A stretch of 64,000 bases of DNA from Antedon mediterranea (lineage: Eukaryota > Echinodermata > Crinoidea > Comatulida > Antedonidae), in the NCBI RefSeq assembly GCF_964355755.1, contig NC_092672.1:496001-560000 (forward strand), in the 5' to 3' direction. Below the pieces are notes generated by a model that ran no database searches, was not told the origin of the DNA, and worked only from the letters and a program-made list of their open reading frames with translations. Made by a program: the position numbers and the translations under genes. Below, one piece after another: positions 396-64,000 of this stretch (position 1 is the first letter of the stretch; each line of letters begins with the position of its first letter).

Positions 396-1614
396 AAAGC
401 CGAAACACATAAGCTACGTCTCTTCAAACGTTACACTTAACGTTCTAAACAAATTGGAATCTGCAAATTAACACAATAGAGCAGCACATTGAGACCACTA
501 GACCCCACGTATTTTGTTTCCAGTGGCTATAACACACAAAAATACAAACACTTTCAAGCTAAGCATAATATTAAAGCTTTGCATGATCATTAAATCTCTC
601 AACACGGTGGAGGTATACATGGTATGTGGAGCGAATCGTTATACTGCAATATCCTATACCAACTAAATTAAGGCACAACGTAAATGGTTAAACGGAAAAT
701 ATTTGATTGACAATGTAATTTTACATAGATACTGTAAACATGACAATAATTGTGTATATTTTAATTACAAAACTATAGTTAAGGTGTGTAAAAACCTTAA
801 ACATCTTGTTTTTTACCATGTTCTAATTATCATTGAAACTTTCAGTGGCTAAAAAAGTGAGATATTGATTAAATTTTTTTCATCATCGATGCAAATTATA
901 ACTTGCGTAATAATACTTATAATAAAGCTTACTAGACTACTGAACTAAAGAGTTATTTAATTATATTCCTATTTGCCTATATTTCTTATTGAGTATTTTC
1001 TTAAGGGATATGGTCTTCCAATTTCTAACAAAGAAGAATATTGGTATTATTATATTTATACTGAATTCGTTAAAGATCGATATAACACACAATGTAGCCT
1101 TTTGTGCTCCATTAATTTATTTCTATCATGAACATATGGTTTGATGAATAAAAATAATAGGGTCTAGGGTAGTCCTTGAAAATAAAGGATCAAATCACAA
1201 GTCTGGTTTCAAATTATCATACACATGATAAGGTACATAATTCAGAAGGAATATTTTTGTTTGAGTCATCCACTTCTGTCCATGATTTGTAGAGGCGTTT
1301 AGAACTAAAGATTATACCCCTACATATGAATATACAGCCTATTGATTCTATCGTTCATTTATTCTATCCTTACAATTTATTCGTCATTACAGTGCCCATA
1401 TTGTCATCCGATTCTCGCATAGTAGACCTATATCTAGAGAAAATAAAGAGAGGTGTCATGATATAGGTGTGGTTGTTCATAACCATAATTTCTTTATTCT
1501 TTATTCTTTATTAAAGACAAACCAATTGGCAGCAAATCTGCTGAATTGCATGGTAAGGGACAATATACATTCAAAAGACAAGTAAAGTATAGTCATTATT
1601 AAACAAGGGTGTTG

Positions 1615-1860
1615 TTGTCCTAAGGGCATAGCAGTTGGACTAGAGGGTAGTTTTCCTAGGGGAGGGGGGGGGGGGGATAGTTGTCCTAGGGGGTAGATTT
1701 CCGGGTGGGAGTTGTCCTAAGGGGGTAGTTGTCCTAGAGGGTAGTTGTCCTAGAGGGTAATTGTCCTAGAGGGGTAATTGTCCTAGAGGGGTAATTGTCC
1801 TAGGGGGGTAATTGTCCTAGAGGGGTAGTTGTCCTAGGGGGGTAGTTGTCCGGGTGGTCA
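1615..1860. repeat. G-rich minisatellite, unit about 17-19 bp
   Basis: Roughly a dozen degenerate copies of a unit of the type GTCCTAGAGGGGTAATT or GTCCTAGGGGGGTAGTT, next to a pure G run. The same motif forms the arrays at 26741-27148 (reverse complement) and 28256-28448, so it is a dispersed minisatellite family. It lies about 190 bp upstream of the Ig pseudogene. Confidence 0.85.
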
Positions 1861-2052
1861 GGATACCTATTTATTTTACGCATGCGCTAGTGGTGTCTCG
1901 CGTTTATTTGCATTACATTGATCGAATAGGAATTGTGGATCGAGCTTAATTCACGTCACAAAAAATGGACTTCCTAATCATCATATTATTTTCACCCTGA
2001 CGTTTTACAGGTATTTAGTTGTTGTTGCCAATACTAGTTTAGTACCGTACCA

Positions 2053-3170
2053 ATGCACTGCTTTGCCATGTTTTTGATAACTTCTTACATACTTTTGTGT
2101 TCATGTTTACTGCTGCAGTGTACACAAGGGCTTTCTTCAGACCAGGATGAACCACAAATACAAGAAATACAAGAAGTACAAGCATATGTTGGACAACAGA
2201 ACGTGAATTTGGATTGTATCGTAAGAATGCATACCAATCAGATGTTATCATGGCATTTGGTTGACCAAACATCCGATTCTAAACCGACTTCAGACACGTG
2301 GATTAAATACCCAGGTGTGTATGCTCTTCAACACGTCGATATTGTTATAAACGGGATAAGTTACAGCCGTTATACAATGGTTATAAAAAACACGAATACC
2401 GGTATGTTAAATAAGGGATTGTATAAATGCAAAGCTACAAGAGGAAGTGATAGTGTATCTGGCGACGGTGAGACTGTCGTGATAGGCATAGCAAGCTTCG
2501 TAGTTTTTGAACTATCTCCTGAACCAAAGGTTTTATGCGGTATTGCAGAAACTAATGTCAAAGGAAATATCAATTATACAGTGCATTGGCATCTATTGGT
2601 ACTATTCCAGCGAAATTTGAGATAAGGGCTATCTACAGCAATACACCTGATTCTATCGGTAGGCCTGTTAACTCTACATTTTAATAAATGCGGATTTAAT
2701 TGCGTCACAGTGGAAGTAAACATAACCCGCAATATGGATTCATTTCAGTGTGTTGTCTTTCACGATCTTCTGCCAAGCGTGATAACCAATTACACATTCT
2801 TATTCTTATTCTTTTATTGCCAAATATAAAATACATGAAAAACACGACAAAAAACCAAAACAATAGAATCAACTGAGTGAGCTGGCATGGAACACAAAAG
2901 CGAACCTAATCACTATGACTTAAAGCCTGTGTTCCCCACTCACCCAGTTTCACAAGCAATGATTATACCATCTTAAAATATAATATCAAGATTCAAAAGC
3001 TAAGTTTAAATCACAATATAAAAAATATATATAAAAAGTATTTTAAATTATATTCATAGGCCTAACATCACGTATTAATGTAAGTTACCAGCCAACATTC
3101 CAGAATATGCCAACGACATTAGAGTATGACACAGAAGGCGATTTGAAGATACTGATTAAAATAGCAGTGG
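2053..3170 (+). pseudogene. Decayed Ig-domain receptor gene, copy 1
   Basis: An open frame of 190 codons (2053-2625) encodes a signal peptide (hydrophobic residues 5-25) and one V-like Ig domain: Cys at about 55, Trp in a LSWHL context, and a GLYKC motif. It matches the first domain of the intact receptor at 31518-32831. Domain 2 starts (PEPKVLCGI versus DPKIICGI) but a frameshift near 2590 moves the homology into another frame (IGTIPAKFEI versus IGDVPANVTI), followed by TAA TAA. Later pieces VEVNITRNMDSF and MPTTLEYDTEGD still align with the intact gene (TRNMNRF, MPSTLEYDHGD). An insertion of about 270 bp (2796-3070) splits domain 2 from domain 3. No membrane segment or tail is recognisable, so a working full-length receptor is unlikely. 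A short secreted one-domain product is possible. Confidence 0.8.
2796..3070. mobile_element. Unidentified insertion inside the Ig pseudogene
   Basis: About 270 bp of sequence unrelated to the Ig gene lies between blocks that are contiguous in the intact paralogue. It starts with a CTTATT/CTTTTATTGCCA-like motif, as some non-LTR 3' tails do. No TSD or family could be assigned. An identical copy is at about 7394-7668. Confidence 0.45.
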
Positions 3171-3369
3171 TACTACTTTTTCTTTGTCATACTTGGCCTA
3201 CTACTAGTGGTAGCCCTACTAGTAGTGTTTTTGATACGGCACACAAAAAAAAAGATTTAAAGGCTATGTTTATATCTTTAAGCAAACCGTTGGGGCCTAT
3301 TAAAGGAGAATTCACGTCGCAGACCCTGTTATATATATAAATTTCAGTATATCACCGGGCGGTTTCGAA

Positions 3370-3760
3370 TTAATGTTCATTGCCTAATGTGTTTATATAT
3401 ATATATATATATATAAAAGTATCTCTCGAGATCCCGCTTAGTGAATAAATATACTGAATTATAGATGAGGGCGTATCAATTTGATCTCTGGTGCGCGTGC
3501 GTACAACTGAGGACTAGTTGTGTTCCAACCGTACCACGCCGAGAATGTTAAAGGGTCGTTATCCGATCAAGTTAAAGAACAATACCATGAAAGCCTCAGT
3601 GGTCTAATGGTTAGGGCAACTGCATATCAAGCAGACGGTCCGAGTTCGAGTCTCGGTTGGGGCGACTTTTTCTCATTCTCCCAGATTTCCTCATCTTTAT
3701 CGTTTCAAAAAATTAATTAAATAATTTTCAGTGTATCACCGGGCGGTTTGGAATTTATTT
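3370..3760 (+). repeat. tRNA-containing SINE-like repeat, copy 1
   Basis: One unit of an approximately 365-bp family: an AT microsatellite, an AAAAGTATCTCT...GAGATCCCGC hairpin, a tRNA-like block at 3592-3666, then a terminal CACCGGGCGGTTT motif. In the tRNA-like block the 7-bp acceptor stem (GCCTCAG/TTGGGGC) and the 5-bp T stem (CCGAG/CTCGG around TTCGAGT) both pair. The anticodon position reads AUC, which normal eukaryotic tRNA sets do not use, so it is better read as tRNA-derived than as a functional tRNA. Confidence 0.7.
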
Positions 3761-3784
3761 CTATGCCTATATATATATATATAT

Positions 3785-4985
3785 GGGCAATTCCATGGTC
3801 ACTCGCATTACACATTACAGTCATTTTTGTTAGTCTAAGCTTTGTACTTTCTATACTAATTGGATTTTTAAGTCAATGTTTTATATGAACATACTTTAGG
3901 TGCAAGTCTTTAATAAAATACTATAAAAAAAATTGTATGTCTTTTACTTCGACAATGACGCCATTTTGATTAGATTTGAGAAGAACGTGTCCTTAAACTA
4001 AAAATATATGAATCAAAAGATCTTATATTTTTAATTGCTGTACTTTTAAAGTATAAAATAGGATAATAAAAAAATTCAACATTACATAGATTTAAAAAAT
4101 ATTTTACATTTTAACAAAAAAGTCCCGTCACTCGCATTACTGTCACTCGCATTACCGTAAGAAATGAAATTAGTATTTACTAAGCAAAGCAGAAAGAAAA
4201 GTAGACAATAATTAAATAATGCAACATTAAACCACTCAAAGAATGTTATATCAATTTTCAAGTAAAAACTTTTATTTCAACTCATTTGGATGAAGTTCTA
4301 AAGGACATCATCTATTTTTAACACTAACAGAATATCTTGATTTTTTACAAACACAGTAACAGAACACTTATACGGTCACTAAAAATGAAAATAGAAAATT
4401 CAAACAGCCATTTTACAAATTATGGAACTCAAAGTTCTTCGCAAACCAGCATCAAGCATTCTTTTTGCCCTGGTAGTGGCTTTAGCAAAGCCATAGCACT
4501 TCTAAAAGGTGATGGCCCGTCTGATGCCAAAGCAGCCTTCTTTGCTCTGAACTAATAGCCACACGTTTTCTATTAGCAACTTTAAGAGCATCAATCTTCT
4601 GCTTCTTCAAAGCTGGTGGCAGAGCTAGAATTTTCTCTTTTCTTTTACTTTTTTACTTCTTTTCGAAATTTCATTTTGTTTGTTTCTGTATGAGGTGTAT
4701 TTTCCCTCGGCTTTCAGTTTTTCTAGGTACTTTCTCTGTCGTTCGGCCATTTCTAAAGGCAGGATGCAAATGTGAATGATATTTTAAAATTATTTTTAAA
4801 TAATAAGCAATTATATATTTTGTTTTTAAAACTACAATGCTTTAGACCTGGTGGTGTAAAATATGCCTAGTAAATAATAATATATAAATAATAATATATA
4901 AATAACTTATTATAGCCTAGGCCTATATGCGGTGTTTTCAAATTATAGAATTTGAAATAATTAACACTAACAATATAAGAAAAAA
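3785..4985. mobile_element. Left half of a TIR element, cut by the duplication
   Basis: It begins with GGGCAATTCCATG, the terminal inverted repeat of the complete element at 8383-10523. The right half is missing because the duplication junction falls inside it. It carries several GTCACTCGCATTAC motifs (about 3799, 4131, 4145) and a minus-strand peptide remnant (4549-4752). Confidence 0.6.
4549..4752 (-). pseudogene. Basic peptide remnant inside the TIR element, copy 1
   Basis: Read on the minus strand from about 4752, a short frame begins MAERQRKYLEKLKAEGKY and continues with lysine/arginine-rich sequence, then stops. Similar basic N-terminal peptides occur in invertebrate transposon proteins. 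I do not recognise the family. The downstream frame is broken. An identical copy, with one base change, lies at about 9147-9350. Confidence 0.35.
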
Positions 4986-6212
4986 AAAAATAAGAAAGCC
5001 GAAACACATAAGCTACGTCTCTTCAAACGTTACACTTAACGTTCTAAACAAATTGGAATCTGCAAATTAACACAATAGAGCAGCACATTGAGACCACTAG
5101 ACCCCACGTATTTTGTTTCCAGTGGCTATAACACACAAAAATACAAACACTTTCAAGCTAAGCATAATATTAAAGCTTTGCATGATCATTAAATCTCTCA
5201 ACACGGTGGAGGTATACATGGTATGTGGAGCGAATCGTTATACTGCAATATCCTATACCAACTAAATTAAGGCACAACGTAAATGGTTAAACGGAAAATA
5301 TTTGATTGACAATGTAATTTTACATAGATACTGTAAACATGACAATAATTGTGTATATTTTAATTACAAAACTATAGTTAAGGTGTGTAAAAACCTTAAA
5401 CATCTTGTTTTTTACCATGTTCTAATTATCATTGAAACTTTCAGTGGCTAAAAAAGTGAGATATTGATTAAATTTTTTTCATCATCGATGCAAATTATAA
5501 CTTGCGTAATAATACTTATAATAAAGCTTACTAGACTACTGAACTAAAGAGTTATTTAATTATATTCCTATTTGCCTATATTTCTTATTGAGTATTTTCT
5601 TAAGGGATATGGTCTTCCAATTTCTAACAAAGAAGAATATTGGTATTATTATATTTATACTGAATTCGTTAAAGATCGATATAACACACAATGTAGCCTT
5701 TTGTGCTCCATTAATTTATTTCTATCATGAACATATGGTTTGATGAATAAAAATAATAGGGTCTAGGGTAGTCCTTGAAAATAAAGGATCAAATCACAAG
5801 TCTGGTTTCAAATTATCATACACATGATAAGGTACATAATTCAGAAGGAATATTTTTGTTTGAGTCATCCACTTCTGTCCATGATTTGTAGAGGCGTTTA
5901 GAACTAAAGATTATACCCCTACATATGAATATACAGCCTATTGATTCTATCGTTCATTTATTCTATCCTTACAATTTATTCGTCATTACAGTGCCCATAT
6001 TGTCATCCGATTCTCGCATAGTAGACCTATATCTAGAGAAAATAAAGAGAGGTGTCATGATATAGGTGTGGTTGTTCATAACCATAATTTCTTTATTCTT
6101 TATTCTTTATTAAAGACAAACCAATTGGCAGCAAATCTGCTGAATTGCATGGTAAGGGACAATATACATTCAAAAGACAAGTAAAGTATAGTCATTATTA
6201 AACAAGGGTGTT

Positions 6213-6458
6213 GTTGTCCTAAGGGCATAGCAGTTGGACTAGAGGGTAGTTTTCCTAGGGGAGGGGGGGGGGGGATAGTTGTCCTAGGGGGTAGATTTCC
6301 GGGTGGGAGTTGTCCTAAGGGGGTAGTTGTCCTAGAGGGTAGTTGTCCTAGAGGGTAATTGTCCTAGAGGGGTAATTGTCCTAGAGGGGTAATTGTCCTA
6401 GGGGGGTAATTGTCCTAGAGGGGTAGTTGTCCTAGGGGGGTAGTTGTCCGGGTGGTCA
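6213..6458. repeat. G-rich minisatellite, duplicate copy
   Basis: Copy of the 1615-1860 array with a slightly shorter G run. Same unit and same position relative to the Ig pseudogene. Confidence 0.85.
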
Positions 6459-6650
6459 GGATACCTATTTATTTTACGCATGCGCTAGTGGTGTCTCGCG
6501 TTTATTTGCATTACATTGATCGAATAGGAATTGTGGATCGAGCTTAATTCACGTCACAAAAAATGGACTTCCTAATCATCATATTATTTTCACCCTGACG
6601 TTTTACAGGTATTTAGTTGTTGTTGCCAATACTAGTTTAGTACCGTACCA

Positions 6651-7768
6651 ATGCACTGCTTTGCCATGTTTTTGATAACTTCTTACATACTTTTGTGTTC
6701 ATGTTTACTGCTGCAGTGTACACAAGGGCTTTCTTCAGACCAGGATGAACCACAAATACAAGAAATACAAGAAGTACAAGCATATGTTGGACAACAGAAC
6801 GTGAATTTGGATTGTATCGTAAGAATGCATACCAATCAGATGTTATCATGGCATTTGGTTGACCAAACATCCGATTCTAAACCGACTTCAGACACGTGGA
6901 TTAAATACCCAGGTGTGTATGCTCTTCAACACGTCGATATTGTTATAAACGGGATAAGTTACAGCCGTTATACAATGGTTATAAAAAACACGAATACCGG
7001 TATGTTAAATAAGGGATTGTATAAATGCAAAGCTACAAGAGGAAGTGATAGTGTATCTGGCGACGGTGAGACTGTCGTGATAGGCATAGCAAGCTTCGTA
7101 GTTTTTGAACTATCTCCTGAACCAAAGGTTTTATGCGGTATTGCAGAAACTAATGTCAAAGGAAATATCAATTATACAGTGCATTGGCATCTATTGGTAC
7201 TATTCCAGCGAAATTTGAGATAAGGGCTATCTACAGCAATACACCTGATTCTATCGGTAGGCCTGTTAACTCTACATTTTAATAAATGCGGATTTAATTG
7301 CGTCACAGTGGAAGTAAACATAACCCGCAATATGGATTCATTTCAGTGTGTTGTCTTTCACGATCTTCTGCCAAGCGTGATAACCAATTACACATTCTTA
7401 TTCTTATTCTTTTATTGCCAAATATAAAATACATGAAAAACACGACAAAAAACCAAAACAATAGAATCAACTGAGTGAGCTGGCATGGAACACAAAAGCG
7501 AACCTAATCACTATGACTTAAAGCCTGTGTTCCCCACTCACCCAGTTTCACAAGCAATGATTATACCATCTTAAAATATAATATCAAGATTCAAAAGCTA
7601 AGTTTAAATCACAATATAAAAAATATATATAAAAAGTATTTTAAATTATATTCATAGGCCTAACATCACGTATTAATGTAAGTTACCAGCCAACATTCCA
7701 GAATATGCCAACGACATTGGAGTATGACACAGAAGGCGATTTGAAGATACTGATTAAAATAGCAGTGG
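6651..7768 (+). pseudogene. Decayed Ig-domain receptor gene, copy 2
   Basis: Same sequence and same lesions as the copy at 2053-3170: a 190-codon frame (6651-7223) with a signal peptide and one V-like Ig domain, a frameshift in domain 2, TAA TAA, an insertion of about 270 bp, then a MPTTLEYDTEGD block. Because the lesions are shared, the gene decayed before it was duplicated. The one visible change, ATTAGA to ATTGGA near 7718, is synonymous or neutral in a dead frame. Confidence 0.8.
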
Positions 7769-7967
7769 TACTACTTTTTCTTTGTCATACTTGGCCTACT
7801 ACTAGTGGTAGCCCTACTAGTAGTGTTTTTGATACGGCACACAAAAAAAAAGATTTAAAGGCTATGTTTATATCTTTAAGCAAACCGTTGGGGCCTATTA
7901 AAGGAGAATTCACGTCGCAGACCCTGTTATATATATAAATTTCAGTATATCACCGGGCGGTTTCGAA

Positions 7968-8358
7968 TTAATGTTCATTGCCTAATGTGTTTATATATAT
8001 ATATATATATATAAAAGTATCTCTCGAGATCCCGCTTAGTGAATAAATATACTGAATTATAGATGAGGGCGTATCAATTTGATCTCTGGTGCGCGTGCGT
8101 ACAACTGAGGACTAGTTGTGTTCCAACCGTACCACGCCGAGAATGTTAAAGGGTCGTTATCCGATCAAGTTAAAGAACAATACCATGAAAGCCTCAGTGG
8201 TCTAATGGTTAGGGCAACTGCATATCAAGCAGACGGTCCGAGTTCGAGTCTCGGTTGGGGCGACTTTTTCTCATTCTCCCAGATTTCCTCATCTTTATCG
8301 TTTCAAAAAATTAATTAAATAATTTTCAGTGTATCACCGGGCGGTTTGGAATTTATTT
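7968..8358 (+). repeat. tRNA-containing SINE-like repeat, copy 2
   Basis: Duplicate of the 3370-3760 element. The tRNA-like block is at 8190-8264, again with anticodon AUC and intact acceptor and T stems. Confidence 0.7.
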
Positions 8359-8382
8359 CTATGCCTATATATATATATATAT

Positions 8383-10523
8383 GGGCAATTCCATGGTCAC
8401 TCGCATTACACATTACAGTCATTTTTGTTAGTCTAAGCTTTGTACTTTCTATACTAATTGGATTTTTAAGTCAATGTTTTATATGAACATACTTTAGGTG
8501 CAAGTCTTTAATAAAATACTATAAAAAAAATTGTATGTCTTTTACTTCGACAATGACGCCATTTTGATTAGATTTGAGAAGAACGTGTCCTTAAACTAAA
8601 AATATATGAATCAAAAGATCTTATATTTTTAATTGCTGTACTTTTAAAGTATAAAATAGGATAATAAAAAAATTCAACATTACATAGATTTAAAAAATAT
8701 TTTACATTTTAACAAAAAAGTCCCGTCACTCGCATTACTGTCACTCGCATTACCGTAAGAAATGAAATTAGTATTTACTAAGCAAAGCAGAAAGAAAAGT
8801 AGACAATAATTAAATAATGCAACATTAAACCACTCAAAGAATGTTATATCAATTTTCAAGTAAAAACTTTTATTTCAACTCATTTGGATGAAGTTCTAAA
8901 GGACATCATCTATTTTTAACACTAACAGAATATCTTGATTTTTTACAAACACAGTAACAGAACACTTATACGGTCACTAAAAATGAAAATAGAAAATTCA
9001 AACAGCCATTTTACAAATTATGGAACTCAAAGTTCTTCGCAAACCAGCATCAAGCATTCTTTTTGCCCTGGTAGTGGCTTTAGCAAAGCCATAGCACTTC
9101 TAAAAGGTGATGGCCCGTCTGATGCCAAAGCAGCCTTCTTTGCTCTGAACTAATAGCCACACGTTTTCTATTAGCAACTTTAAGAGCATCAATCTTCTGC
9201 TTCTTCAATGCTGGTGGCAGAGCTAGAATTTTCTCTTTTCTTTTACTTTTTTACTTCTTTTCGAAATTTCATTTTGTTTGTTTCTGTATGAGGTGTATTT
9301 TCCCTCGGCTTTCAGTTTTTCTAGGTACTTTCTCTGTCGTTCGGCCATTTCTAAAGGCAGGATGCAAATGTGAATGATATTTTAAAATTATTTTTAAATA
9401 ATAAGCAATTATATATTTTGTTTTTAAAACTACAATGCTTTAGACCTGGTGGTGTAAAATATGCCTAGTAAATAATAATATATAAATAATAATATATAAA
9501 TAACTTATTATAGCCTAGGCCTATATGCGGTGTTTTCAAATTATAGAATTTGAAATAATTAACACTAACAATATAAGAAAAAAAAACTTAAAAATTGTGA
9601 TTAAATATAAATGTATACTTATTCTTACCTTCTTATCTTCACAAAAGATTGTACCAAATTTGTTAAATCTCACCAGATTTAGTGTTTTTTATTTAATGAG
9701 CTCTTATAATGATTGATTTTTCAAATGATTTTTTAACTGCAAAAAGGTCGTTGCTAGGGATTGTGCCCTCAACAAACCTAATGCTATAATTATTATACTG
9801 TAGTGCCTCCAAATAAGGGCCAAATCACACATTGTATTATGAAATTAATGTATATACTAATTCTGGGACTAATTCATAACTAATGATAGATTAATTACTA
9901 TTTTACTTTACAAAAAAAAGAGTTTTAGTAATGTCACTCGCATTACATTGTCCATTTTTGAACGTCACTCGCATTACATGTCACTCGCATTTCACTTTTC
10001 AATGTCTCAACAATTTTGTATTTACGGGGATTTTTTATTTTTATTTGTCAAATTTCAATTGTTCAAAGTAGTATAGCTAAATTATAAAATTTCATTAAAA
10101 AAAATTATCATCATGATGGTATAAAAAAAAAAATCATTTTTTTTGTCACTCGCATTACATACCCTAATATATAACAGAATATACACAGCACTCCTATATG
10201 GGATATTCAACATTTGTAGTTATATCATATTTTCCATACATCTTAAGTGTAGTACCGTATTACTTAGACATGTTACTTTATAAATATTGCTTTGTTGGGA
10301 AAATAATAATCAGTTAACGTAATTACCTATTTTTCACACCTAAAAAAAAATATATATTCAACATTGAATAAACGTAATTTTTTGGCTGCAAAAAGTCATA
10401 AATGAATTGAAAAAGTTAAAAACCTAGTTCCCACATATTCAAAGAGTAACATAAACACAAATTTTGAGCTGACTAATTAATTTGAATTTTTTTGGTCATG
10501 TCCATGTTTGCATGGAATTGCCC
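8383..10523. mobile_element. TIR element of about 2.1 kb with recurrent GTCACTCGCATTAC motifs
   Basis: It begins with GGGCAATTCCATG and ends with the exact reverse complement CATGGAATTGCCC, followed on both sides by AT-microsatellite sequence. Inside, the 14-mer GTCACTCGCATTAC, or a close variant, recurs near both ends (about 8397, 8728, 8742, 9933, 9964, 9979, 10145), like subterminal transposase-binding repeats. Only a broken basic peptide remnant (minus, about 9147-9350) is coding-like, so this is probably a non-autonomous or dead DNA transposon. Superfamily not determined. Confidence 0.6.
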
Positions 10524-31517: not shown

Positions 31518-32831
31518 ATGAATTCAATTCGTACGATATGCCTATATTACGTTATTGTTAATTGTGCTTTCTCAGAAAACCCATCTGAATCAACGAGAAC
31601 ATTGCAAGTACTTGTTGGAGAAAAAAACATTAAATTGAACTGTTTAGTTGTCGCCGTTAATGACGTCGCTTGGTATCATGTCAATGAATACAACGATGAC
31701 ACTCATCCAACTCAACTGAGTATCAACAAAACAACAACGTTTGAACAATATTTTGAACTTGCATATTATTATGAGCTGAAAACACATAATTATTGTCTTA
31801 TTATAAAACAGATTAGCCGAAATTTGGAAGGTTTGTACATCTGTAAACTAACATATAAATCAGTTGTTTCTACTGTAGCGAAAACAAATATCGAAGTGTA
31901 TGAGTTGCCTACTGACCCCAAGATAATTTGTGGCATAGAAACAACTGATCTTGTAGAAGGTAATATCGTTACTCTAAATTACACCATCTTTATTGGTGAC
32001 GTTCCAGCAAATGTTACAATCTTTATGTTGGATACCAAAGGAGATTGTTATGTTATGTACAACCTACCAAACAGTCAACTTAGTTTGGAAATTAGTGTAA
32101 CCCGTAACATGAACAGATTTCATTTCAGAGTTTCACATAACTTCCTTCAACAAAGTCTTGTCTGTGATACTCCACAACTTAATGTTAGATATTCACCACG
32201 GTTTGAAAGCATGATGCCCAGTACTTTAGAATATGACCACGGGGATCGTCTCAACATACCGATAAATGTTACTAATTCTTATCCCGCGGCAAACATCTCT
32301 TGGAATTGTTGGAGGAACATTAACATATTATTCGATTGTAGTCAAGCTGAATTAATGTCCAGTAAAATTCCAGGCATCTATAATTTATCTATAGACACAA
32401 GTTACTGTTCGGAGTTTATCATGACGTTGACCGCAACTAATACTTTAGGTAAAGATGTCCACAATGTTAGTTTAAATTGCAGTTACATCTATAATAAGGA
32501 CCATCGAAAACCTTTGAAAGTATCAATGTGTATTCTATGTCTACTACTAGTAGTGGTGGTATGCGGCCTGGTCTATAGATACAAACAATGGATAACCGAA
32601 CGATTGAGTAATGGTAGGTCGAGCTGGAGAGACATAATAACTCGTTGCTCTTTCCGTGTGCATGTAGAGTGTCGGACTGCTGTTGATGAGAAGATGTTGT
32701 CTGTTCATGAGGAGATGTTGCCTGTTGATGGGCAGATGTTGCCTGCTGTAAAGGAGTTGTCATCTGATGGTGAGGAGATGTTGCCTGTTGATGAGAAGAT
32801 GTTGCCTGTGAGGAGATGTTGCCTGCTGTAA
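31518..32831 (+). CDS. Single-exon Ig-domain transmembrane receptor with repeat tail
   Basis: 437 residues. Visible in order: signal peptide (1-19); V-like Ig domain with Cys42, Trp52 and Cys109 in a GLYICK motif; a second Ig-like domain (about 133-225, Cys138/Cys206); a third (about 226-320, Trp262); a transmembrane helix at 335-353 (CILCLLLVVVVCGLV); and a cytoplasmic tail. There are many N-x-S/T sites. The tail contains degenerate 21-residue repeats built from EEMLPVDEEMLPAVKESISD. The frame ends in RRCCLL because of an apparent 4-bp deletion in the repeat near 32803-32810; the repeats stay open in another frame to 32998. The whole receptor lies in one exon, unusual for the Ig superfamily. 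It is paralogous to the gene at 35324 and the pseudogenes at 2053/6651. Ligand and role are unknown; cell-surface recognition or immunity is an inference. Confidence 0.85.
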   Translation: MNSIRTICLYYVIVNCAFSENPSESTRTLQVLVGEKNIKLNCLVVAVNDVAWYHVNEYNDDTHPTQLSINKTTTFEQYFELAYYYELKTHNYCLIIKQISRNLEGLYICKLTYKSVVSTVAKTNIEVYELPTDPKIICGIETTDLVEGNIVTLNYTIFIGDVPANVTIFMLDTKGDCYVMYNLPNSQLSLEISVTRNMNRFHFRVSHNFLQQSLVCDTPQLNVRYSPRFESMMPSTLEYDHGDRLNIPINVTNSYPAANISWNCWRNINILFDCSQAELMSSKIPGIYNLSIDTSYCSEFIMTLTATNTLGKDVHNVSLNCSYIYNKDHRKPLKVSMCILCLLLVVVVCGLVYRYKQWITERLSNGRSSWRDIITRCSFRVHVECRTAVDEKMLSVHEEMLPVDGQMLPAVKELSSDGEEMLPVDEKMLPVRRCCLL

Positions 32832-32998
32832 AGGAGTCGATATCTGATGATGAGGAGATGTTGCCTGTTGATGAGGAGATGTTGCCTGCTGTAAAGGAGT
32901 CGATATCTGATGATGAGGAGATGTTACCTGTTGATGAGGAGATGTTACCTGCTGTAAAGGAGTCGACATCTGATGATGAGGAGATGTTGTCATGCTAA
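32685..32998 (+). repeat. Coding minisatellite, 63-bp unit (tail of the Ig receptor)
   Basis: Units of GATGAGGAGATGTTGCCTGT plus GCTGTAAAGGAGTCGATATC recur four to five times. The last three are nearly identical. They encode acidic EEMLPVDEEMLPAVKESISD repeats. The receptor frame leaves the repeat frame near 32805 after loss of four bases, so 32816-32998 is an out-of-frame continuation. Minus-strand ORFs across this region are shadows. Confidence 0.85.
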
Positions 32999-35323: not shown

Positions 35324-37123
35324 ATGAGGCTCAGCAAGAAATCTTCGTTTTTCTCATGCGTAATTTATTTGATATTAAAAGCTGAAGCAGCATATAACGT
35401 AACTGTAACGCCTTCAATGAATATTTTCACCGTATTTAGTACAGCAGAGCTTAGATGCGTAGTTCAAGACACGGAAGTATACGCAGTAAATTGGTTTAAA
35501 TCCAAGTATAAAATTATTGGAAATACAGATGTATTTGATCACACTTACTCTGTTGAGTGTAATTTCACAAGTAAAAGTTTCAAACTGTTAATTAATAAAG
35601 CTGCAGGATTTCATACTGGTATGTACACATGTGAAGTGTGTTTCGATTTGGAAAGAAAAACGTGTGCATTTAGCAATGTTGCAAATGTAACTGTATACCC
35701 GATTCCTGAAAGACCCAAATGCTCTGATGTTGAACACAATGTCAAAGAAGGGGAAGTCATACCTTTCGGGTGTTTTATGATTGGCGGTACACGCTTCCCA
35801 AGTATCTTGGAGGTATCCATTCTTTACAAAAACGGCACATCTCGACCAAACCTGTCGACCTCAACAGACAAAAGCATTTCACACAATATATCAATATCTT
35901 ACGATCTGAACAACGCTGTGTTGTGCTGCACTGCCAGATTTCCAATAATAAATACGACATTAAAGTGTTCAAGTGGGCCATTTAATGTCAGCTACTCTCC
36001 AAAATTTCTTTCAATGACCTACTCAATTGCTGACTCAACCAATGCACCAAGTAACGCATCTTTTACAGTGGCAATCTCATCCAATCCTGAAGCAATTGTG
36101 ACTTGGTCAAACTATGACGGACTTTTTATATACTGTAATGTATCTGAATCTGGAAATTGTAAGTTTTATGTATGTAATATCTATAATATTACAAACGGGA
36201 CAGACGTTATTATTTTAGCTGATAATCATTTTGGTAATATCAGTCAGTCGTTAAATTTGGTTTGGGATCACACTACAATTACACCTATCATAACTATAAA
36301 TACTAATTCTACAAATTATAAAATGGATTATGGTGATAATAAGTTTGCGATAACAATAACTGTTTCTGCTTCTTCAGTGGTGGTTGTGCTTGTTACGATT
36401 ATTATTATTATTGTAATAAAGAAAATCCGGAAGATGAGCCAAATCAAGAATCAAAATATTCGTCTTAATGTTATTGGCGTTTCATCCACACCCAGTCGGA
36501 CACAATCGGCAACACAACAACATATTTATGCAACAAAACTGTACAGAGTAAACAGTGCCGATAGTACAATAGGAGAAATAAATAAACAGGAAAGAAGACC
36601 AATGCAAATGGAAGGACTACCCAACATAGATCTCGGAGCACAAGACATGTTTGTAAATGAAATGTATTCTGAAAATTTAACATACAGTGAAATTGACCAT
36701 CCAATGACTGTAAATAAAGTCGGAGTGACTCGGACAATTGAAAGTGTTGATAACACCGAAGTAGTAAACAAGCATTTTACACAAACTACTGACAGTAAGA
36801 TAATACATAAACATAGGCCTAGAATTATTTGCATTCAACAATGCAAGTTTGACCATGTAATGATGAAGGAAAATCAACTAGAATGCTCACTTTGCCAAAA
36901 ACAATACCATAGACATTGTCTCAAAATAAAGTCAACCGCGACATCCCCCGAAACATGGTTGTGTCCATATTGCAATGATATTCAGGGTACTGTTAAATCT
37001 ATACTTCAGACCAGTTCGGATCAGCAGCAATTGATATCAGACATGGCTTGTAATATCGCTTCATTGACGGCAATGGTAAAAGAACAGAAAGATATGATTG
37101 CAAACCTACAAACCAGCAATTGA
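35324..37123 (+). CDS. Single-exon Ig-TM receptor with ITIM-like motif and PHD finger
   Basis: 599 residues, intronless. Order: signal peptide (about 1-22); V-like Ig domain (Cys45, Trp57, GMYTCEV with Cys103); two further Ig-like domains (about 130-224; 225-313, Trp261); TM helix at about 343-365 followed by basic KKIRKM; then a cytoplasmic tail. In the tail LTYSEI (452-457) fits the ITIM pattern L-x-Y-x-x-I. Residues 503-550 form a complete PHD-type C4HC3 set: Cys503/Cys507, Cys521/Cys524, His529/Cys532, Cys547/Cys550, with WLCPYC at the end. Residues 560-599 look coiled-coil. PHD plus coiled coil is familiar from LINE ORF1 proteins and from chromatin readers, but very unusual behind a surface receptor. 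Paralogue of the 31518 gene. The C-terminal codons are duplicated at 40598. Signalling function is an inference. Confidence 0.85.
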   Translation: MRLSKKSSFFSCVIYLILKAEAAYNVTVTPSMNIFTVFSTAELRCVVQDTEVYAVNWFKSKYKIIGNTDVFDHTYSVECNFTSKSFKLLINKAAGFHTGMYTCEVCFDLERKTCAFSNVANVTVYPIPERPKCSDVEHNVKEGEVIPFGCFMIGGTRFPSILEVSILYKNGTSRPNLSTSTDKSISHNISISYDLNNAVLCCTARFPIINTTLKCSSGPFNVSYSPKFLSMTYSIADSTNAPSNASFTVAISSNPEAIVTWSNYDGLFIYCNVSESGNCKFYVCNIYNITNGTDVIILADNHFGNISQSLNLVWDHTTITPIITINTNSTNYKMDYGDNKFAITITVSASSVVVVLVTIIIIIVIKKIRKMSQIKNQNIRLNVIGVSSTPSRTQSATQQHIYATKLYRVNSADSTIGEINKQERRPMQMEGLPNIDLGAQDMFVNEMYSENLTYSEIDHPMTVNKVGVTRTIESVDNTEVVNKHFTQTTDSKIIHKHRPRIICIQQCKFDHVMMKENQLECSLCQKQYHRHCLKIKSTATSPETWLCPYCNDIQGTVKSILQTSSDQQQLISDMACNIASLTAMVKEQKDMIANLQTSN

Positions 37124-38880
37124 CAACATTCGAAATATGATTTTAATGCGATACAAATTAGACTGATAAATAACAATGTTAGAATATAGGGCTACCATGA
37201 AGAAGAGATTGCATCTCATCTATGCTATATAATATGCCTACGTTTTGAAAACATGAAAAAAAAAACTACTACGGTAAAATCTTATTTTAATCAATAGATG
37301 TACACCCTCAACAGACAAATAGCTGAAGAAAATATATAATTATCAGACTGCTGCTGAGACTTATGCGAGTATATTTGTAAATAATTATGTGTAAAATATA
37401 TATGCAAGTAAATCAGTAGTAAATGTAAATTTTCTTAGATTTTTTACGTGTAAAAAAATGAATACAGTGGAACATTATAAAATAATATTTAACCTATATA
37501 AACAATATTTCACAAATATTAAAAACGCCTATGCTCGGTAGCTTTAAGGTTCTGAATTAAAAAACAAAAAAAGTGAATAAAATCGTTAGACTTAGGCCTA
37601 TAGTGTAAATATATTTCCATAATTTCGTTGTCACATTAGGACAGCAAAAACGTTTTAATCCGCAACCGAGACCAGGCAATTGATGTTTTGTTTTTAATCG
37701 TTTTTTGTTTCATAGCAATTAAAAGAAATGAATATTCAAATATATTGAGTGGTTGTGATTTTCTGATTTGTGTATTAATGACATCACTAACAGCTAAAAG
37801 AAAACTTATATTGGGCCAAAATAAAAACAGAGGGCGCTATCACAGAAACTATCAGCACCTCATGTTTTATACCAATTAATAGAGGGCGGGCTATACATTG
37901 GTAAATGAAAACTATGGAACGCAAAGTGTGCCTTCAGTGAAAACGATAGTATCACAAAATCATTTAAACGGCAGTTACGTGTTTAATTTTTTTACTGACT
38001 GTGTAGAACATTTCCATTTGCGACAATCGTAAACGGTGAGCAGGTTGAGTCTTTGCGATGTATTTTGCATAATCTGCTCCTGCCCAGAATGTGTATACGT
38101 TGTTGTATTGTACATATGTTGAAATGATTTTGAACTACTGTACAATAGTTAGTACAGTACAATAGAATAGACAGGAAAACTACTATACACTACACACTTT
38201 TTGCCGTTCTTGCTATCAGTCTAAACTGCCATTGTGTCTCCGCTGTTGATTTGAAAATACAGTACAAAGAAAACCAGATTACAATATAGTACTGTCATTT
38301 AATGACGTACATATGACTTGCATTGCAGTGGTACCGATAGTGTAGAAGGTTTAAATGCAAATGTACAAGGGGTGGGTATAAACATGGAGTAAAGAATTAC
38401 TCCATGGTATAAATGGAAAAACTGTTTTTTGCAAACAATACAAAATAATATACAGAATACTTTCCACAAGTACTTTATTAGCTGTAATGCCAGTATACCT
38501 CTAAAATATTTACATCTCTACTGTCAATATAGATAAACATAAATTTATAAATAAGAAAATTGGGTTAAAATTATCCCCAAAATAAATCGTATTACTGTAT
38601 CTAACTGTAGATATCCAAAATGTGACCAATGTTTAAACAATTTTCAGAAACCCTTAATCCCATTAAATATGTACAATGATTTCAAAGACAAATATCTATA
38701 CATCTTCAAGCAAAGGGAAGAGATTTGAAAATGAGTCTTCCCATAAATTGTCACAGAAAGGACTAGCATCATTGCTTAGTGGTGAATTTGGAGCGTCACT
38801 GAAAGCTGAATCACCAGAGTCACTCATAGTAGAATACGATGGAGATGGTGATAGCGGATCAGTACTGTTAAGACCCAGCA
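37037..38880. repeat. Segmental duplication, copy A
   Basis: About 1.84 kb also present at 40598-42448 with small indels and substitutions. It holds the last codons of the Ig-PHD gene, the convergent intergenic region, and the last 61 codons of XBP1. It ends exactly where the 106-bp satellite starts. Confidence 0.9.
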
Positions 38881-38881
38881 A
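38696..38881 (-). pseudogene. XBP1 3'-terminal fragment
   Basis: Encodes the last 61 residues of XBP1 (LGLNSTDPLSPSPS ... LWEDSFSNLFPLL), ending EDV where the intact gene at 42263 ends EDL. There is no bZIP exon or upstream exon in the copy; the homology stops at the satellite. It is a by-product of the 1.85-kb duplication, not a gene. Confidence 0.85.
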
Positions 38882-40250
38882 AGTTTATCCTATTCTTTAT
38901 AACTGTTCTCAAGTATACCAAAATGACTATAGTTGAGAACAGTGTTAAACTGGATCGTACATTAATGTCTTTTGTTGTATATTGTTAAGTTTATCCTATT
39001 CTATCACTGTTCTCAAGTATACCAAAATAACTATAGTTGAGAACAGTGTTAAACTGGATCGTACATTAATGTTTTTTGTTGTATATTGTTAAGTTTATCC
39101 TATTCTTTATCACTGTTCTCAAGTATACCAAAATGACTATATTTGAGAACAGAGTTAAACTGGATCGTACATTAATGTTTTTTGTTGTATATTGTTAAGT
39201 TTATCCTATTCTTTATCACTGTTCTCAAGTATACCAAAATAACTATAGTTGAGAACAGTGTTAAACTGGATCGTACATTAATGTTTTTTGTTGTATATTT
39301 TTAAGTTTATCCTATTCTTTATCACTGTGCTAAAGTATACCAAAATGACTATAGTTGAGAACAGTGTTAAACTGGATCGTACATTAATGTTTTTTGTTGT
39401 ATATTTTTAAGTTTATCCTATTCTTTATCACTGTGCTCAAGTATACCAAAATGACTATAGTTGAGAACAGTGGTAAACTGGATCGTACATTAATGTTATT
39501 TGTTTTATATTATTAAGTTTATCCTATTCTTTATCACTGTGCTCAAGTATACCAAAATGACTATAGTTGAGAACAGTGTTAAACGGGATCGTACATTAAT
39601 GTTTTTTGTTGTATATTGTTAAGTTTATCCTATTCTTTATCACTGTTCTCAAGTATACCAAAATGACTATAGTTGAGAACAGTGTTAAACTGAATCGTAC
39701 ATTAATGTTTTTTGTTGTATATTGCTAAGTTTATCCTATTCTTTATCACTGTGCTCAAGTATACCAAAATGACTATAGTTGAGAACAGTGTTAAATGGGA
39801 TCGTACATTAATGTTTTTTGTTGTATATTGTTAAGTTTATCCTATTCTTTATAACTGTTCTCAAGTATACCAAAATGACTATAGTTGAGAACAGTGTTAA
39901 ACTGGATCGTACATTAATGTCTTTTGTTGTATATTGTTAAGTTTATCCTATTCTATCACTGTGCTCAAGTATACCAAAATTACTATAGTTGAGAACAGTG
40001 TTAAACGGGATCGTACATTGTTGTTGTATATTGTTAAGTTTATCCTATTCTTTATCACTGTGCTCAAGTATACCAAAATGACTATAGTTGAGAACAGTGT
40101 TAAACGGGATCGTACATTAATGTTATTTGTTGTATATTGTTAAGTTTATCCTATTCTTTATCAATGTGCTCAAGTATACCAAAATGACTATAGTTGAGAA
40201 CAGTGTTAAACTACATCGTACATTAATGTTATTTGTTGTATATTGTTAAG
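38881..40250. repeat. 106-bp satellite, about 13 copies
   Basis: Unit starts AAGTTTATCCTATTCTTTAT and is 106 bp long (one copy 104, another shortened near 40020). Each unit contains a 10-bp perfect inverted repeat, CTGTTCTCAA...TTGAGAACAG, around a 20-bp spacer, though some units carry CTGTGCTCAA. The array lies between the two copies of the segmental duplication. Confidence 0.95.
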
Positions 40251-40597
40251 TGTATTCTTTATTCTTATTAATTGTACTAAATTATTAAAAGAAACAGTAG
40301 TAAGCATAACATTTCCCCACTCCTACATTAACATGGTAGGACATTGTAATGGTCGCAGGTGGCTCAACTTTATTACTGCAATGGGATGGACATGGTCCTA
40401 CTACCACCTTACCATCCAATAGGATTCCAGTAAATTTCCTTTACTACCAATCATAATTCAGTAATTAAATGACCCCTTAAGTTAACAAGGAAATCAGCCT
40501 ATCCCATTATACCGGTAGGCTTCGTCGTTACAGGCGTACTGCGGTAATAGTTGAGAATTTTCAACTAGCCAATTTGGTATATTTTATATACCTGATC
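40251..40597. other. Spacer between satellite and duplication copy B
   Basis: Unique-looking AT-rich sequence with a CCATTACAATGTCC/GGACATGGTCC-like pair. No gene. Confidence 0.4.
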
Positions 40598-40723
40598 TCA
40601 GACATGACTTGTAATATCGCTTCATTGACGGCAATGGTAAAAGAACAGAAAGATTTGATTGCAGACCTACAAACCAGCAATGGACAACATGATATGATTT
40701 TAATGCGGTACAAATTAGACTGA
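40598..40723 (+). pseudogene. Ig-PHD gene C-terminal fragment
   Basis: Encodes SDMTCNIASLTAMVKEQKDL and on, matching residues 572-599 of the 35324 gene. The copy reads through the original stop (TSNGQH instead of TSN stop) to a TGA at 40721. No PHD or upstream exon sequence is present. Confidence 0.8.
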
Positions 40724-42448
40724 TAAATAACAATGTTAGAATATAGGCCTACCATGAAAAGGAGAATGCATCTTATCGATGATATAGATTTTGAAAAAAC
40801 ATGAAAAAAAAAATACTTCTGTAACATCATATTTTAATCAATAGATGTAAACCCTCAGACAAATAGTTAAGAAAATATATATTTATCATACTCTGCTGCT
40901 GAGAACTTTCTATCCGAGTAAATTTGTAAATTATGTGTAAAATATATGCAAGTAAATCAGTAGTAAATGTAAATTTTCTTAGATTTTTTACGTGTAATGA
41001 ATACAGTGGAACATTATAAAATAATATTAACCTATATAAACAATATTTCACAAATATTAAAAAGGCCTATGCTCGGTAGCTTTAAGGCTCTGAATTAAAA
41101 AACAAAAAAGTGAATAAAATCGTTACGACTTATAGTGTAAATATATTTCCATAATTTCGTTGTCACATTAGGACAGCAAAAACGTTTTAATCCGCAACCG
41201 AGACCAGGCAATTGATGTTTTGTTTTTAATCGTTTTTTGTTTCATAGCAATTAAAAGAAAAGAATATTCAAATATATTGAGTGGTTGTGATTTTCTGATT
41301 TGTGAGTAATACTGGACTAAGATAATGACAGGCCGAAACATCAATTTTAGTTGATTTTGTATTAATGACACATCACTAATATAACAGCTAAAAGAAAACT
41401 TATATTGGGCCAAAATAAAAACAGAGGGCGCTATCACAGAAACTATCAGCGCCTCATGTTTTATACCAATTAATAGAGGGCGGGCTATACATTGGTAAAT
41501 GAAAACTATGGAACGCAAAGTGTGCCTTCAGTGAAAACGATAGTATCACAAAATCATTTAAACGGCAGTTACGTGTTTAATTTTGTTACTGACTGTGTAG
41601 AACATTTCCATTTGCGACAATCGTAAACGGTGAGCAGGTTGAGTTTTTGCGATGTATTTTGCATAAACTGCTCCTGGCCAGAATGTGTATACGTTGTATT
41701 GTACGTATGTTGAAATAATTTTGAACTACTATACAATAGTTAGTACAGAACAATAGAATAGACAGGAAAACTACTGTACACTACACACTCTTTGCTGATG
41801 AGGAAATGTTCTTGCAATCAGTATAAACTGCCATTGTGTCTCCGCTGTTGATTTGAAAATACAGTACAAAGAAAACCAGATTACAATATAGTACTGTCAT
41901 TTAATGACGTACATATGACTTGCATTGCAGCGGTACCGATAGTGTAGAAGGTTTAAATGCAAATGTACAAGGGGTATAAATGGAAAAACTGTTTGTTGCA
42001 AACAATACAAAATTACATACAGAATACTTTCCACAAGTACTTTATTAGCTGTAATGCCAGTATACCTCTAAAATATTTACATCTCTACTGTCAATATAGA
42101 TAAACATAAATTTATAAATAAGAAAATTGGGTTAAAATTATCCCAAAAATAAATCGTATTACTGTATCTAACTGTAGATATCCAAAATGTGACCAATGTT
42201 TAAACAATTTTCAGAAACCCTTAATCCCATTAAATATGTACAATGATTTCAAAGACAAATATCTATAAATCTTCAAGCAAAGGGAAGAGATTTGAAAATG
42301 AGTCTTCCCATAAATTGTCACAGAAAGGACTAGCATCATTGCTTAGTGGTGAATTTGGAGCGTCACTGAAAGCTGAATCACCAGAGTCACTCATAGTAGA
42401 ATACGATGGAGATGGTGATAGCGGATCAGTACTGTTAAGACCCAGCAA
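40598..42448. repeat. Segmental duplication, copy B
   Basis: Matches 37037-38880. Its left end carries the Ig-PHD C-terminus and its right end runs into the intact XBP1 last exon, so this copy has the native XBP1 context while copy A has the native Ig-PHD context. Confidence 0.9.
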
Positions 42449-47115: not shown

Positions 47116-48063
47116 ATGTGTGATGTAAATGTACGATCTGAATGGCATTCTCTAGCCAAACGAGTCAATGTGTTGGAATCGTATATGAGTTATTATGATT
47201 CCAATCCAGATAAAGTTGACGGAAAGTTCTGTGTAGTTTTTGTTCACGGAAATCCGACATCATCATACCTCTGGCGCAACGTCATTCCGTTCGTGGAATC
47301 AAAATACCGATGTTTTGCTCCTGATCTGATCGGCATGGGGATGTCTGCGAAGTTACCTGGAGGCAGTCAATACACATTCATGGACGTATTTCGGTATTTG
47401 TCCGAGTGGTTCACGGCAGCTTGTGTTCCGCAGAAAGTTGTTCTTGTTTGCCATGATTGGGGATCAGCTTTGAGCTTCAATTGGGCTTACAAGAATCAGG
47501 ACAGGGTCGTTGGAATCGTTCATATGGAAAGTCTTGTTTCACCGATTCCAAGTTGGGAGTTTTGGGAACAAAACTTTAAAGACCCGACACTGAAAGACGC
47601 ACCGGAGGGCACTCCTGGAGTAATCGACGTCTTCAAATCATTTCATACTTCGGTTGGCGAGAAAGCAATACTGGATGACAATGTATTCATCGAGAAGCTT
47701 CTAGGAGAAGGAATAATTCGAGATTTATCTAACGAAGAGTTGGATATTTATCGAAAACCTTTCCTGGAGCCAGGTGAGTCTCGTCGACCTATGCACACCC
47801 TGGCATGCTCTCTTCCGATTGTAACACTGGGTGGAGAAGTCGTCCAAATCGTGAGTGCTTACAGTAAATGGCTATCAGAAAGTTCTGATGTGCCCAAGTT
47901 GTTTTTGAACGCCGAACCTGGTTTCTTTTCGCCAGTGATCAAAGCCATTACAAAGGATTGGCCTAACCACCGAGTCGGAACTTGTACTGGTTTGCATTTT
48001 GTTCAGGAAGATTCTCCAGATATTATTGGGAAGCAAGTGGTGGAGTTCTTGGATGAGTTGTAA
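47116..48063 (+). CDS. Renilla-luciferase-like / haloalkane dehalogenase family protein
   Basis: 315 residues in one exon, alpha/beta-hydrolase fold. Visible catalytic set: HGNPTSSYLWRN with Asn46, CHDWGS with nucleophile Asp114 and Trp115 (halide/oxyanion residues), HMES with Glu138, and GLHF with His294. This is the Asp-Glu-His triad of haloalkane dehalogenases and of Renilla coelenterazine luciferase, which is about the same size. Further luciferase-like blocks: IYRKPFLEPGESRRP, VVQIVSAYSKWL, EPGFFS and FVQEDSPDIIGK. No signal peptide, so probably cytosolic. Echinoderm and amphioxus relatives of this family are known; some echinoderm members are linked to bioluminescence, others are dehalogenases. 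Sequence alone cannot choose between them. An intronless gene among intron-containing neighbours fits retroposition or ancient transfer from bacteria. An AATAAA lies at 48457-48462. Confidence 0.92.
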   Translation: MCDVNVRSEWHSLAKRVNVLESYMSYYDSNPDKVDGKFCVVFVHGNPTSSYLWRNVIPFVESKYRCFAPDLIGMGMSAKLPGGSQYTFMDVFRYLSEWFTAACVPQKVVLVCHDWGSALSFNWAYKNQDRVVGIVHMESLVSPIPSWEFWEQNFKDPTLKDAPEGTPGVIDVFKSFHTSVGEKAILDDNVFIEKLLGEGIIRDLSNEELDIYRKPFLEPGESRRPMHTLACSLPIVTLGGEVVQIVSAYSKWLSESSDVPKLFLNAEPGFFSPVIKAITKDWPNHRVGTCTGLHFVQEDSPDIIGKQVVEFLDEL

Positions 48064-63087: not shown

Positions 63088-64000
63088 AATCAGCAAGCAA
63101 AAATTATTAATGTACGTAAATGGTCTCCTGAAGCCGAGGAAGCCCTGATAGCGGAATTTGAATCTACCGATTGGGATATTTTTACGGAGGATGAAGATTT
63201 GAATAGTATTACTTATGCAGTGAGCTCGTACATAAACTTTTGTATTGATAAATGCGTTCCAGTTAAAAAAGTGAAAATCTACCCTAACAACAAGCCATGG
63301 ATCACGAAAGGCGTTAAATTACTGTTGTGTGAGAAACGTAAAGCCTTTAAGATGGGCGACTCTAATCGTATGAAAATATTGACTAGAGAGATTAAATCTG
63401 AAATAATGAAACAGAAGAACATTTATAGGAAAAAAGTTGAACATAACTTCAGGTCTAATAATATGAAACAAGTTTGGCAGGGTATGAAACTTATGAGTGG
63501 TTACACAAACGGTGGTAATACACCCACCTCGATTCCGAATGTTACTGTGCAATATGTTAATGAGTTAAATGAATTTTATAACCGTTTTAATGTTCATGAT
63601 TTTAAAAAAGAAAGAGAGGCTCTATTTAGCTTGTGTCGGGTGACTGAAGATGATCCCAAATTTAGTATAAGCATTTCTGATGTACATAACGAATTCATGA
63701 AACTCAATTCATCGAAGGCTGCTGGGCCGGATAGAATCCCACCACGAGTACTTAAGGTCTGCTCTCCTCACCTTGATGGTATATTTACATTTATTTTCAA
63801 TATGTGTCTTTCTTATCATGCGTTCCCGGATATTTGGAAACTTTCATGCATAATACCGGTACCTAAGAAACCTAAGATTAACTGCATGAATGATTTGAGA
63901 CCCGTTGCACTCACGTCTGTCGCGATGAAAATATTGGAACGTATTATTTTAAAAATTATGCAACCTTATGCTGAAAAAGTGTTAGACCCGTTGCAATTTG
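63088..64000 (+). CDS. Non-LTR retrotransposon ORF2 (partial, runs off the window)
   Basis: One uninterrupted frame follows a TAG at 63085-63087 and continues to the last base: 304 codons, no stop. It encodes the linker after an endonuclease (KWSPEAEEALIAEF, NNKPWITKGVKLLL, RKAFKMGDSNRMKIL), then RT blocks LNSSKAAGPDRIPPRVLK, FPDIWKLSCIIPVPKK, NDLRPVALTSVAMKILERII and DPLQFG. The catalytic block would lie beyond the edge. No endonuclease upstream, so probably 5'-truncated, but the unbroken frame suggests a recent insertion. It lies in or beside AKAP10 in antisense orientation. It differs from the LINE at 10.6-11.7 kb. Clade (CR1/Rex1/L2-like) not resolved. Confidence 0.85.

Follow-up and report, generated by a model that had tools for sequence, protein, structure and literature searches.

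The receptor family described here presumably resembles the ITIM-bearing paired Ig receptors of the FcR-like, Siglec and LILR type. As in these receptors, a signal peptide, an Ig ectodomain, one transmembrane (TM) helix and tail motifs of the LTYxEI/VDYxEV type are combined, and the copies are clustered and diverged. In contrast to them, the receptor studied here is encoded by one uninterrupted frame and its tail ends with a PHD finger and a coiled coil. Chromatin proteins are the main known carriers of PHD fingers, and no Ig receptor with a PHD tail was described in the listed titles and abstract openings of open-access papers, which is not a proof of absence.

PHD fingers have also been found in the ORF1 of many CR1 and L2 LINE subgroups; in the available portion of that 2014 report, PHD and esterase ORF1s are described as separate types and its authors were aware of no functional study of a LINE PHD (PMC4120745). 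With PHD-bearing ORF1 proteins, the receptor shares a PHD finger followed by a coil, ~60% identical to that of a C10 element over residues 500-596, but it is devoid of the SGNH domain, the zinc knuckle and the ORF2, and it possesses an N-terminal receptor part. The passage of LINE ORF1 protein sequence into a host gene has been described for L1TD1 (PMC4161310), an RNA-binding protein whose coding sequence is nearly all LINE-1 (PMC4161310, PMC11925450), whereas the receptor would be a surface protein that has gained only a short stretch, taken from a LINE of a different kind. As L1TD1 was called in 2014, in the accessible text of the report, the only known domesticated gene with a coding sequence almost wholly LINE-1 (PMC4161310), domestication of LINE proteins seemed rarely documented at that time. 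Plant PTM likewise combines a PHD finger with TM segments but is located in the chloroplast envelope, and neither Ig domains nor a LINE link is mentioned in the available part of its description (PMC7209948).

The window, i.e. the whole stretch of 64,000 nucleotides analysed (C3:496001-560000), contains a frame of 599 codons and a stop, with zero internal stops, whose features are collected in Table 1. In the preliminary description, this unbroken frame was read as a signal peptide, Ig domains, a TM helix, a C4HC3 PHD finger and a coil, a layout which was confirmed by translation, by the zinc ligands and by the relatives of the protein; the tail tyrosine motifs, the tandem family and the PHD-less paralogue L003 were not mentioned there. 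The signal peptide and the TM helix were assigned by eye from the window protein. With Pfam, the profile match on this protein covers the first Ig domain only (I-set, 1.5e-6, exceeding the curated cut-off), while Ig domains 2-3 are suggested by cysteines and by the paralogue alignment. The location of the receptor at the cell surface is predicted from this layout.

Table 1. Features of the receptor gene and of its surroundings in the window (positions are those of the window).
Feature	Position	Strand	Basis
Ig receptor ORF next to the gene in the cluster (437 aa, PHD-less)	31518..32831	+	ORF, Pfam
Receptor gene, single open frame	35324..37123	+	Translation, genome search
Signal peptide, residues 1-22	35324..35389	+	By eye, presumed boundary; paralogues also have a hydrophobic N-terminus
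Ig-type ectodomain, residues 23-338	35390..36337	+	Pfam (first domain I-set/V-set), paralogue alignment
TM helix, residues ~341-365, followed by basic KKIRK	36344..36418	+	By eye
Tail tyrosine pair Y402/Y407	36527..36544	+	Motif QHIYxTxLYx[VI]
ITIM-like LTYSEI, residues 452-457	36677..36694	+	Motif scan, alignment
C4HC3 PHD finger, very probably LINE ORF1-derived, residues 500-552	36821..36979	+	Pfam, LINE relatives, tree, ligands
Coiled coil, very probably LINE ORF1-derived, residues 555-599	36986..37120	+	Heptad analysis, LINE match
Partial duplicate: final 30 codons and 3' flank of the gene, source 37032-38881	40593..42448	+	

A whole-genome search of this one genome revealed that the gene belongs to a tandem family on C3, all members of which lie on the same strand. 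L001 (C3:448345, 65% identity) and L004 (C3:494117, 50% identity) are uninterrupted and carry the PHD finger and the coil. L002 (C3:463084/463502) has kept both in frame though the copy is broken further upstream, and L003 (C3:478942, 64% identity over the aligned part) is without a PHD finger. The three PHD-bearing paralogues, with the module in frame, are thus found 37-83 kb upstream of the window gene, and elsewhere in the genome the same search returned less closely related Ig receptors with long open reading frames. The break in L002 consists of an insertion and a separate in-frame TAG. The insertion (L002:566-714, ~150 bp relative to L003) ends in a short AAATG-like repeat, and short repeat ends of this kind are typical of LINE-type insertions. 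An intron was considered and rejected, given that the left edge is without GT and that the insert ends in this repeat; L002 was therefore treated as a broken copy, on account of both the non-intron insertion and the in-frame TAG.

L003 combines the same Ig head with a different tail, in which a tyrosine-rich 105-bp tandem repeat precedes LTYLEI and VDYADV. This coding repeat comprises 8.9 copies (L003:3402-4333, C3 ~480.2-481.1 kb) and encodes ENIYEMEQ and HTSYSREE. Over the 1 kb downstream of L003, inspection of the three frames by eye showed no PHD; L003 most likely lost the module. Since L003 has tyrosine motifs without a PHD finger, the motifs are, as far as the aligned copies tell, a family trait to which the PHD module was added later. 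L003 does without the module, and the latter is therefore not essential to the family. In the window itself, a 21-bp repeat array (32680-32989) covers the stop codon of the neighbouring Ig receptor, whose tail length may vary with the repeat number, and a 106-bp tandem array of 13.1 copies (38881-40255) separates the 3' end of the gene from its partial duplicate.

The ITIM consensus is [SIVL]xYxx[ILV]. A motif scan found one match in the tails of the window gene and of L004, and two in each of L001, L002 and L003. By motif, the window gene tail is ITIM-bearing, phosphorylation and SH2 recruitment being predictions only. QHIYxTxLYx[VI] was found in four of the five family members, with L003 as the exception, and where the paralogues have their second motif, V[DE]Yx[ED][IV], the window gene reads VDNTEV (~residue 475). 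Among the six distant relatives fetched, one has a clear ITIM-like tail motif, the C6 cousin L035, whose tail ends with LTYADL and IYADV; the one other pattern match, in L036, sits at the membrane edge.

In the window protein, the zinc ligands are C503, C507, C521, C524, H529, C532, C547 and C550, in C4HC3 order. W545 precedes the last ligand pair, at position -2 from the seventh ligand, and the first pair has the spacing C-x3-C, which is the same in the C10 LINE. With Pfam, the window protein alone stays under the curated cut-offs of both PHD_4 (2.8e-4, 21.2 of 30.6 bits) and PHD (2.5e-3, 18.2 of 24 bits), and L001, L004 (23.0 of 24) and five scanned LINE ORF1s are also under the PHD cut-off. 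An alignment of four receptors and four LINEs reaches solved PHD fingers, e.g. 2ysm, with a best value of 4.8e-7. The PHD assignment is thus based on a closely related LINE ORF1 (E 9.5e-31) and on this alignment search. Single-sequence AlphaFold gave poor models of both the PHD finger with the coil (mean pLDDT 51.7, <50 over nearly the whole finger) and the ectodomain (mean pLDDT 29.6); Foldseek on the former, poor model returned nothing with E <0.001, a PHD-like chain being ranked fourth (E 4.4).

The MARCH membrane E3 ligases carry a RING-CH zinc finger, which is distinct from PHD. A MARCH/RING-CH reading was rejected on the grounds that the finger is closest to LINE PHDs and to solved PHD fingers and that the Trp stands at -2 from the seventh ligand; the RING-CH family is absent among the Pfam matches of the window protein. 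The positions at which H3K4 readers have the aromatic-cage Trp or the acidic residues are, presumably, occupied by Gln and Ser in the receptor PHD (CSLCQKQYH). Canonical H3K4 reading is not favoured because these reader residues are not evident in the receptor finger.

A genome search with the PHD finger and coil returned 27 places, repeat counts being lower bounds. Besides the window gene, its partial duplicate and the three paralogues with a PHD, these comprise 22 non-receptor places. Fourteen of the latter were fetched; an SGNH (esterase) match adjoins the PHD in 12 of them, and in nine the fetched DNA includes an EN-RT ORF2 match. For the PHD-bearing frames of L026 and L033, neither an SGNH nor an ORF2 match was obtained in the fetched DNA, and these would represent an ORF1 of a different type or a further host gene that has captured a PHD. 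L011 has the complete arrangement, with PHD, coil, GDSL lipase and zinc knuckle in ORF1, of which PHD and knuckle score under their cut-offs, and with endonuclease, RVT_1 and zf-RVT in ORF2. L011 and other LINE loci thus have an ORF1 that joins PHD, coiled coil, SGNH esterase and zinc knuckle, and this combination of PHD and esterase in one ORF1 may merit attention.

The closest LINE is the element on contig C10 (L006), whose ORF2 pieces are contained in L025. The preliminary description had proposed that a receptor gene captured the PHD and coil of a LINE ORF1, and the search that it suggested, of the PHD tail against the LINE ORF1s of this genome, returned this C10 ORF1 with ~60% identity over residues 500-596 (E 9.5e-31). 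At the protein level the match spans window positions 36821-37111, and at the DNA level it reaches 72% over 36821-36996. The C10 ORF1 runs on into an SGNH esterase, and EN-RT pieces of ORF2 lie downstream of this ORF1. Within L006:1660-3351, this ORF1 contains an internal repeat of the coil and SGNH start in one 564-codon frame. The C10-type LINE is represented by at least one long ORF1 and at least one further close fragment (C2:32591282).

In a midpoint-rooted tree of 19 rows, the PHDs of the four receptors group together with support 92/89 (in 90% of the 200 bootstrap trees), and this group joins the C10 LINE with support 98/97. L015-L021 (second cuts of places already included), frames that misfit the ligand pattern (e.g. 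L010 and L032) and loci without a PHD were left out of this tree; the pattern required most ligands, and the tree rows are therefore no measure of ligand loss in LINEs. The spacing between the second and the third ligand is one residue longer in all four receptors than in the C10 LINE. Because the receptor PHDs group together and then with the C10 LINE, a single capture before receptor duplication appears the likeliest history. Collectively, identity, tree position and LINE context support the proposed capture of the PHD/coil module from a LINE ORF1 by a receptor gene, which we regard as very probable.

Two other origins were rejected. The gene is not a complete LINE, as its own ORF2 is missing downstream: in the window, two LINE ORF2 queries gave no match after 37123 until a fragment at 63562. 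Nor does it correspond to an ordinary 5'-truncated LINE insertion, in which the 3' end of the element would be present, for the captured part comes from ORF1. Since this part is without the 3' end of the element, the module more likely arrived by recombination or as a partial copy. LINE fragments occur in the region, three in the window and one after L001. The latter, an RT fragment (L030), was considered as a donor remnant and rejected, being 31-39% like the ORF2s of the PHD-bearing LINEs and of another type by eye; it is treated as a probably unrelated insertion.

The coil starts at ~residue 555, and its best register, with 75% I/L/M/V/F at a/d positions, was matched by 3 of 5000 shuffles. 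One heptad register fits both the receptor coil and the C10 LINE coil. Between the window coil and the C10 LINE, 10 of 12 a/d sites are identical, against 9 of 30 other sites (p 0.0024), and the conserved a/d sites include two Gln at d. In comparison with the same element (L006), the values are 7/10 against 5/23 for L004 (p 0.016) and 6/10 against 7/23 for L001 (p 0.14, not significant); for the window coil and the more distant LINE L007, they are 6/12 against 10/30 (p 0.48). At their start, the coils of L001, L002 and L004 lack 14 residues, which is exactly two heptads. Such a length difference, along with the kept heptad core, would fit selection for a coiled coil. This shared gap is at odds with the ectodomain, for which L004 is the outlier.

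The four PHD-bearing copies (window gene, L001, L002 and L004) have retained all eight zinc ligands; the preliminary description had looked to their conservation in orthologues, and among these paralogues none has been lost. Pairwise dN/dS (NG86) was estimated for the six pairs among the four copies of this one genome. Point estimates are lowest for the PHD finger (0.12-0.34 in five of six pairs, dS being saturated in the sixth), with wide intervals which reach 0.96 (window gene and L001) and 1.10 (L001 and L002) and overlap those of the Ig part. The latter gave 0.36-0.52 (six pairs), the coil alone 0.27-0.48 and the TM helix 0.38-1.60 (five of six pairs each), and the tail before the PHD 0.23-1.12 (two regions and six pairs, i.e. 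12 region-pairs). Fisher tests of synonymous versus nonsynonymous changes yielded p values of 5e-4, 3e-7 and 2e-6 for PHD and coil in the three pairs tested, and of 0.36 and 0.06 for the adjacent tail in the two pairs tested. Over residues 367-450, the window copy is nearer to L004 (dS 0.54) than to L001 (1.40), while in the PHD it is nearer to L001 (dS 0.46) than to L004 (1.41). Because of this mosaic of divergence between tail and PHD, gene conversion between copies is likely and may blur the substitution counts. Assuming one capture, the comparison of these paralogues indicates that the module has been under purifying selection since that event.

The following mechanism is proposed. Tandem Ig receptors with ITIM-like tails would have gained a ~290-bp piece of a LINE ORF1 once, before the present copies diverged; this piece would have become the C-terminal end of the cytoplasmic tail, beyond the tyrosine motifs, and would then have been retained by purifying selection. 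The coil of the LINE-1 ORF1p self-associates. The captured coil may do the same and pre-cluster the receptor tails, while the PHD finger would serve as a zinc-stabilized docking surface for a cytoplasmic peptide partner, such that the receptor would signal through its tyrosine motifs together with a transposon-derived scaffold. The architecture, the LINE relationship, the constraint and the preservation of the heptads are established at the level of sequence. The role of the module in clustering tails or docking a partner, drawn by analogy, is put forward tentatively, with a likelihood somewhat short of even, and the whole account, from capture and retention to clustering and docking, is considered moderately probable.

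Other fates of the tail are conceivable; the preliminary description had raised both a nuclear release and the binding of a modified ligand at the membrane, which are conjectural. If intramembrane proteolysis freed it, the PHD finger could act as a nuclear chromatin reader, and the solved PHDs reached by the family alignment are, by name, mainly chromatin proteins. This is nevertheless quite unlikely, as the reader residues are presumably replaced in the receptor, as noted above, and as no clear nuclear signal was seen by eye beyond the basic residues beside the TM helix. In the accessible text on plant PTM, this membrane-anchored PHD protein was proposed to be cleaved and to reach the nucleus, although this has been doubted, and its location is the chloroplast envelope (PMC7209948). 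The captured coil could alternatively still pair with the donor-type LINE ORF1 protein, such that the receptor would tether or poison LINE particles, as a restriction decoy, or sense them. The a/d identity of 10/12 with the C10 LINE, the two Gln included, fits this idea, as does the interaction of L1TD1, a domesticated LINE-1 ORF1 gene, with L1 ORF1p; yet L1TD1 is reported, in the part of the source available, to promote rather than restrict LINE retrotransposition (PMC11925450). Moreover, the a/d identity of L001 with L006 is not significant, the C10-type LINE looks low-copy on the lower bounds given above, and a surface receptor is an odd site for a LINE decoy; this pairing is thus judged unlikely. 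The broader notion that the tail co-assembles with LINE ORF1 protein or enters the nucleus, and thereby links self/non-self recognition to transposon control, has similarly slim chances.

Pure chance read-through was rejected, the frame, ligands and coil being conserved in tandem paralogues. A functionless read-through into a LINE fragment, or a frame that is spliced out of the real mRNA, would agree with the nearby LINE fragments, with the lack of the module in L003 and with the broken state of L002, but the frame and eight ligands are common to all four copies, the PHD dN/dS point estimates are well below 1 and the indels between aligned frames are in-frame, one of them of exactly two heptads, which makes it very unlikely. 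As the direction of transfer depends on the root of the tree, here the midpoint, the PHD finger and coil could in principle be host-born and have been acquired by LINEs from such a gene. Against this, the receptor PHDs adjoin a single LINE amid varied ORF1s that bear a PHD, the coil is shared with the LINE besides the PHD, and PHDs occur in many CR1 and L2 subgroups according to the available portion of the survey (PMC4120745), so that such an origin is highly improbable.

With the capture reading, the locus presents an orphan LINE module on an immune-type receptor, with dN/dS point estimates lower than those of the ectodomain. It would offer a way to test the function of a LINE PHD-coil in isolation and would exemplify how pieces of transposon proteins enter a receptor family that is diverging.

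Two further features of the window are recorded. Positions 396-4988 and 4995-9586 form a near-perfect tandem duplication (99.9% over a 4593-column match). Each copy contains a tRNA match and an Ig-type ORF of 190 aa, which does not differ between the two. At 47116-48063, a 315-aa ORF in one frame encodes an alpha/beta hydrolase (Pfam Abhydrolase_1), which we take to resemble a relative of Renilla luciferase and haloalkane dehalogenase.
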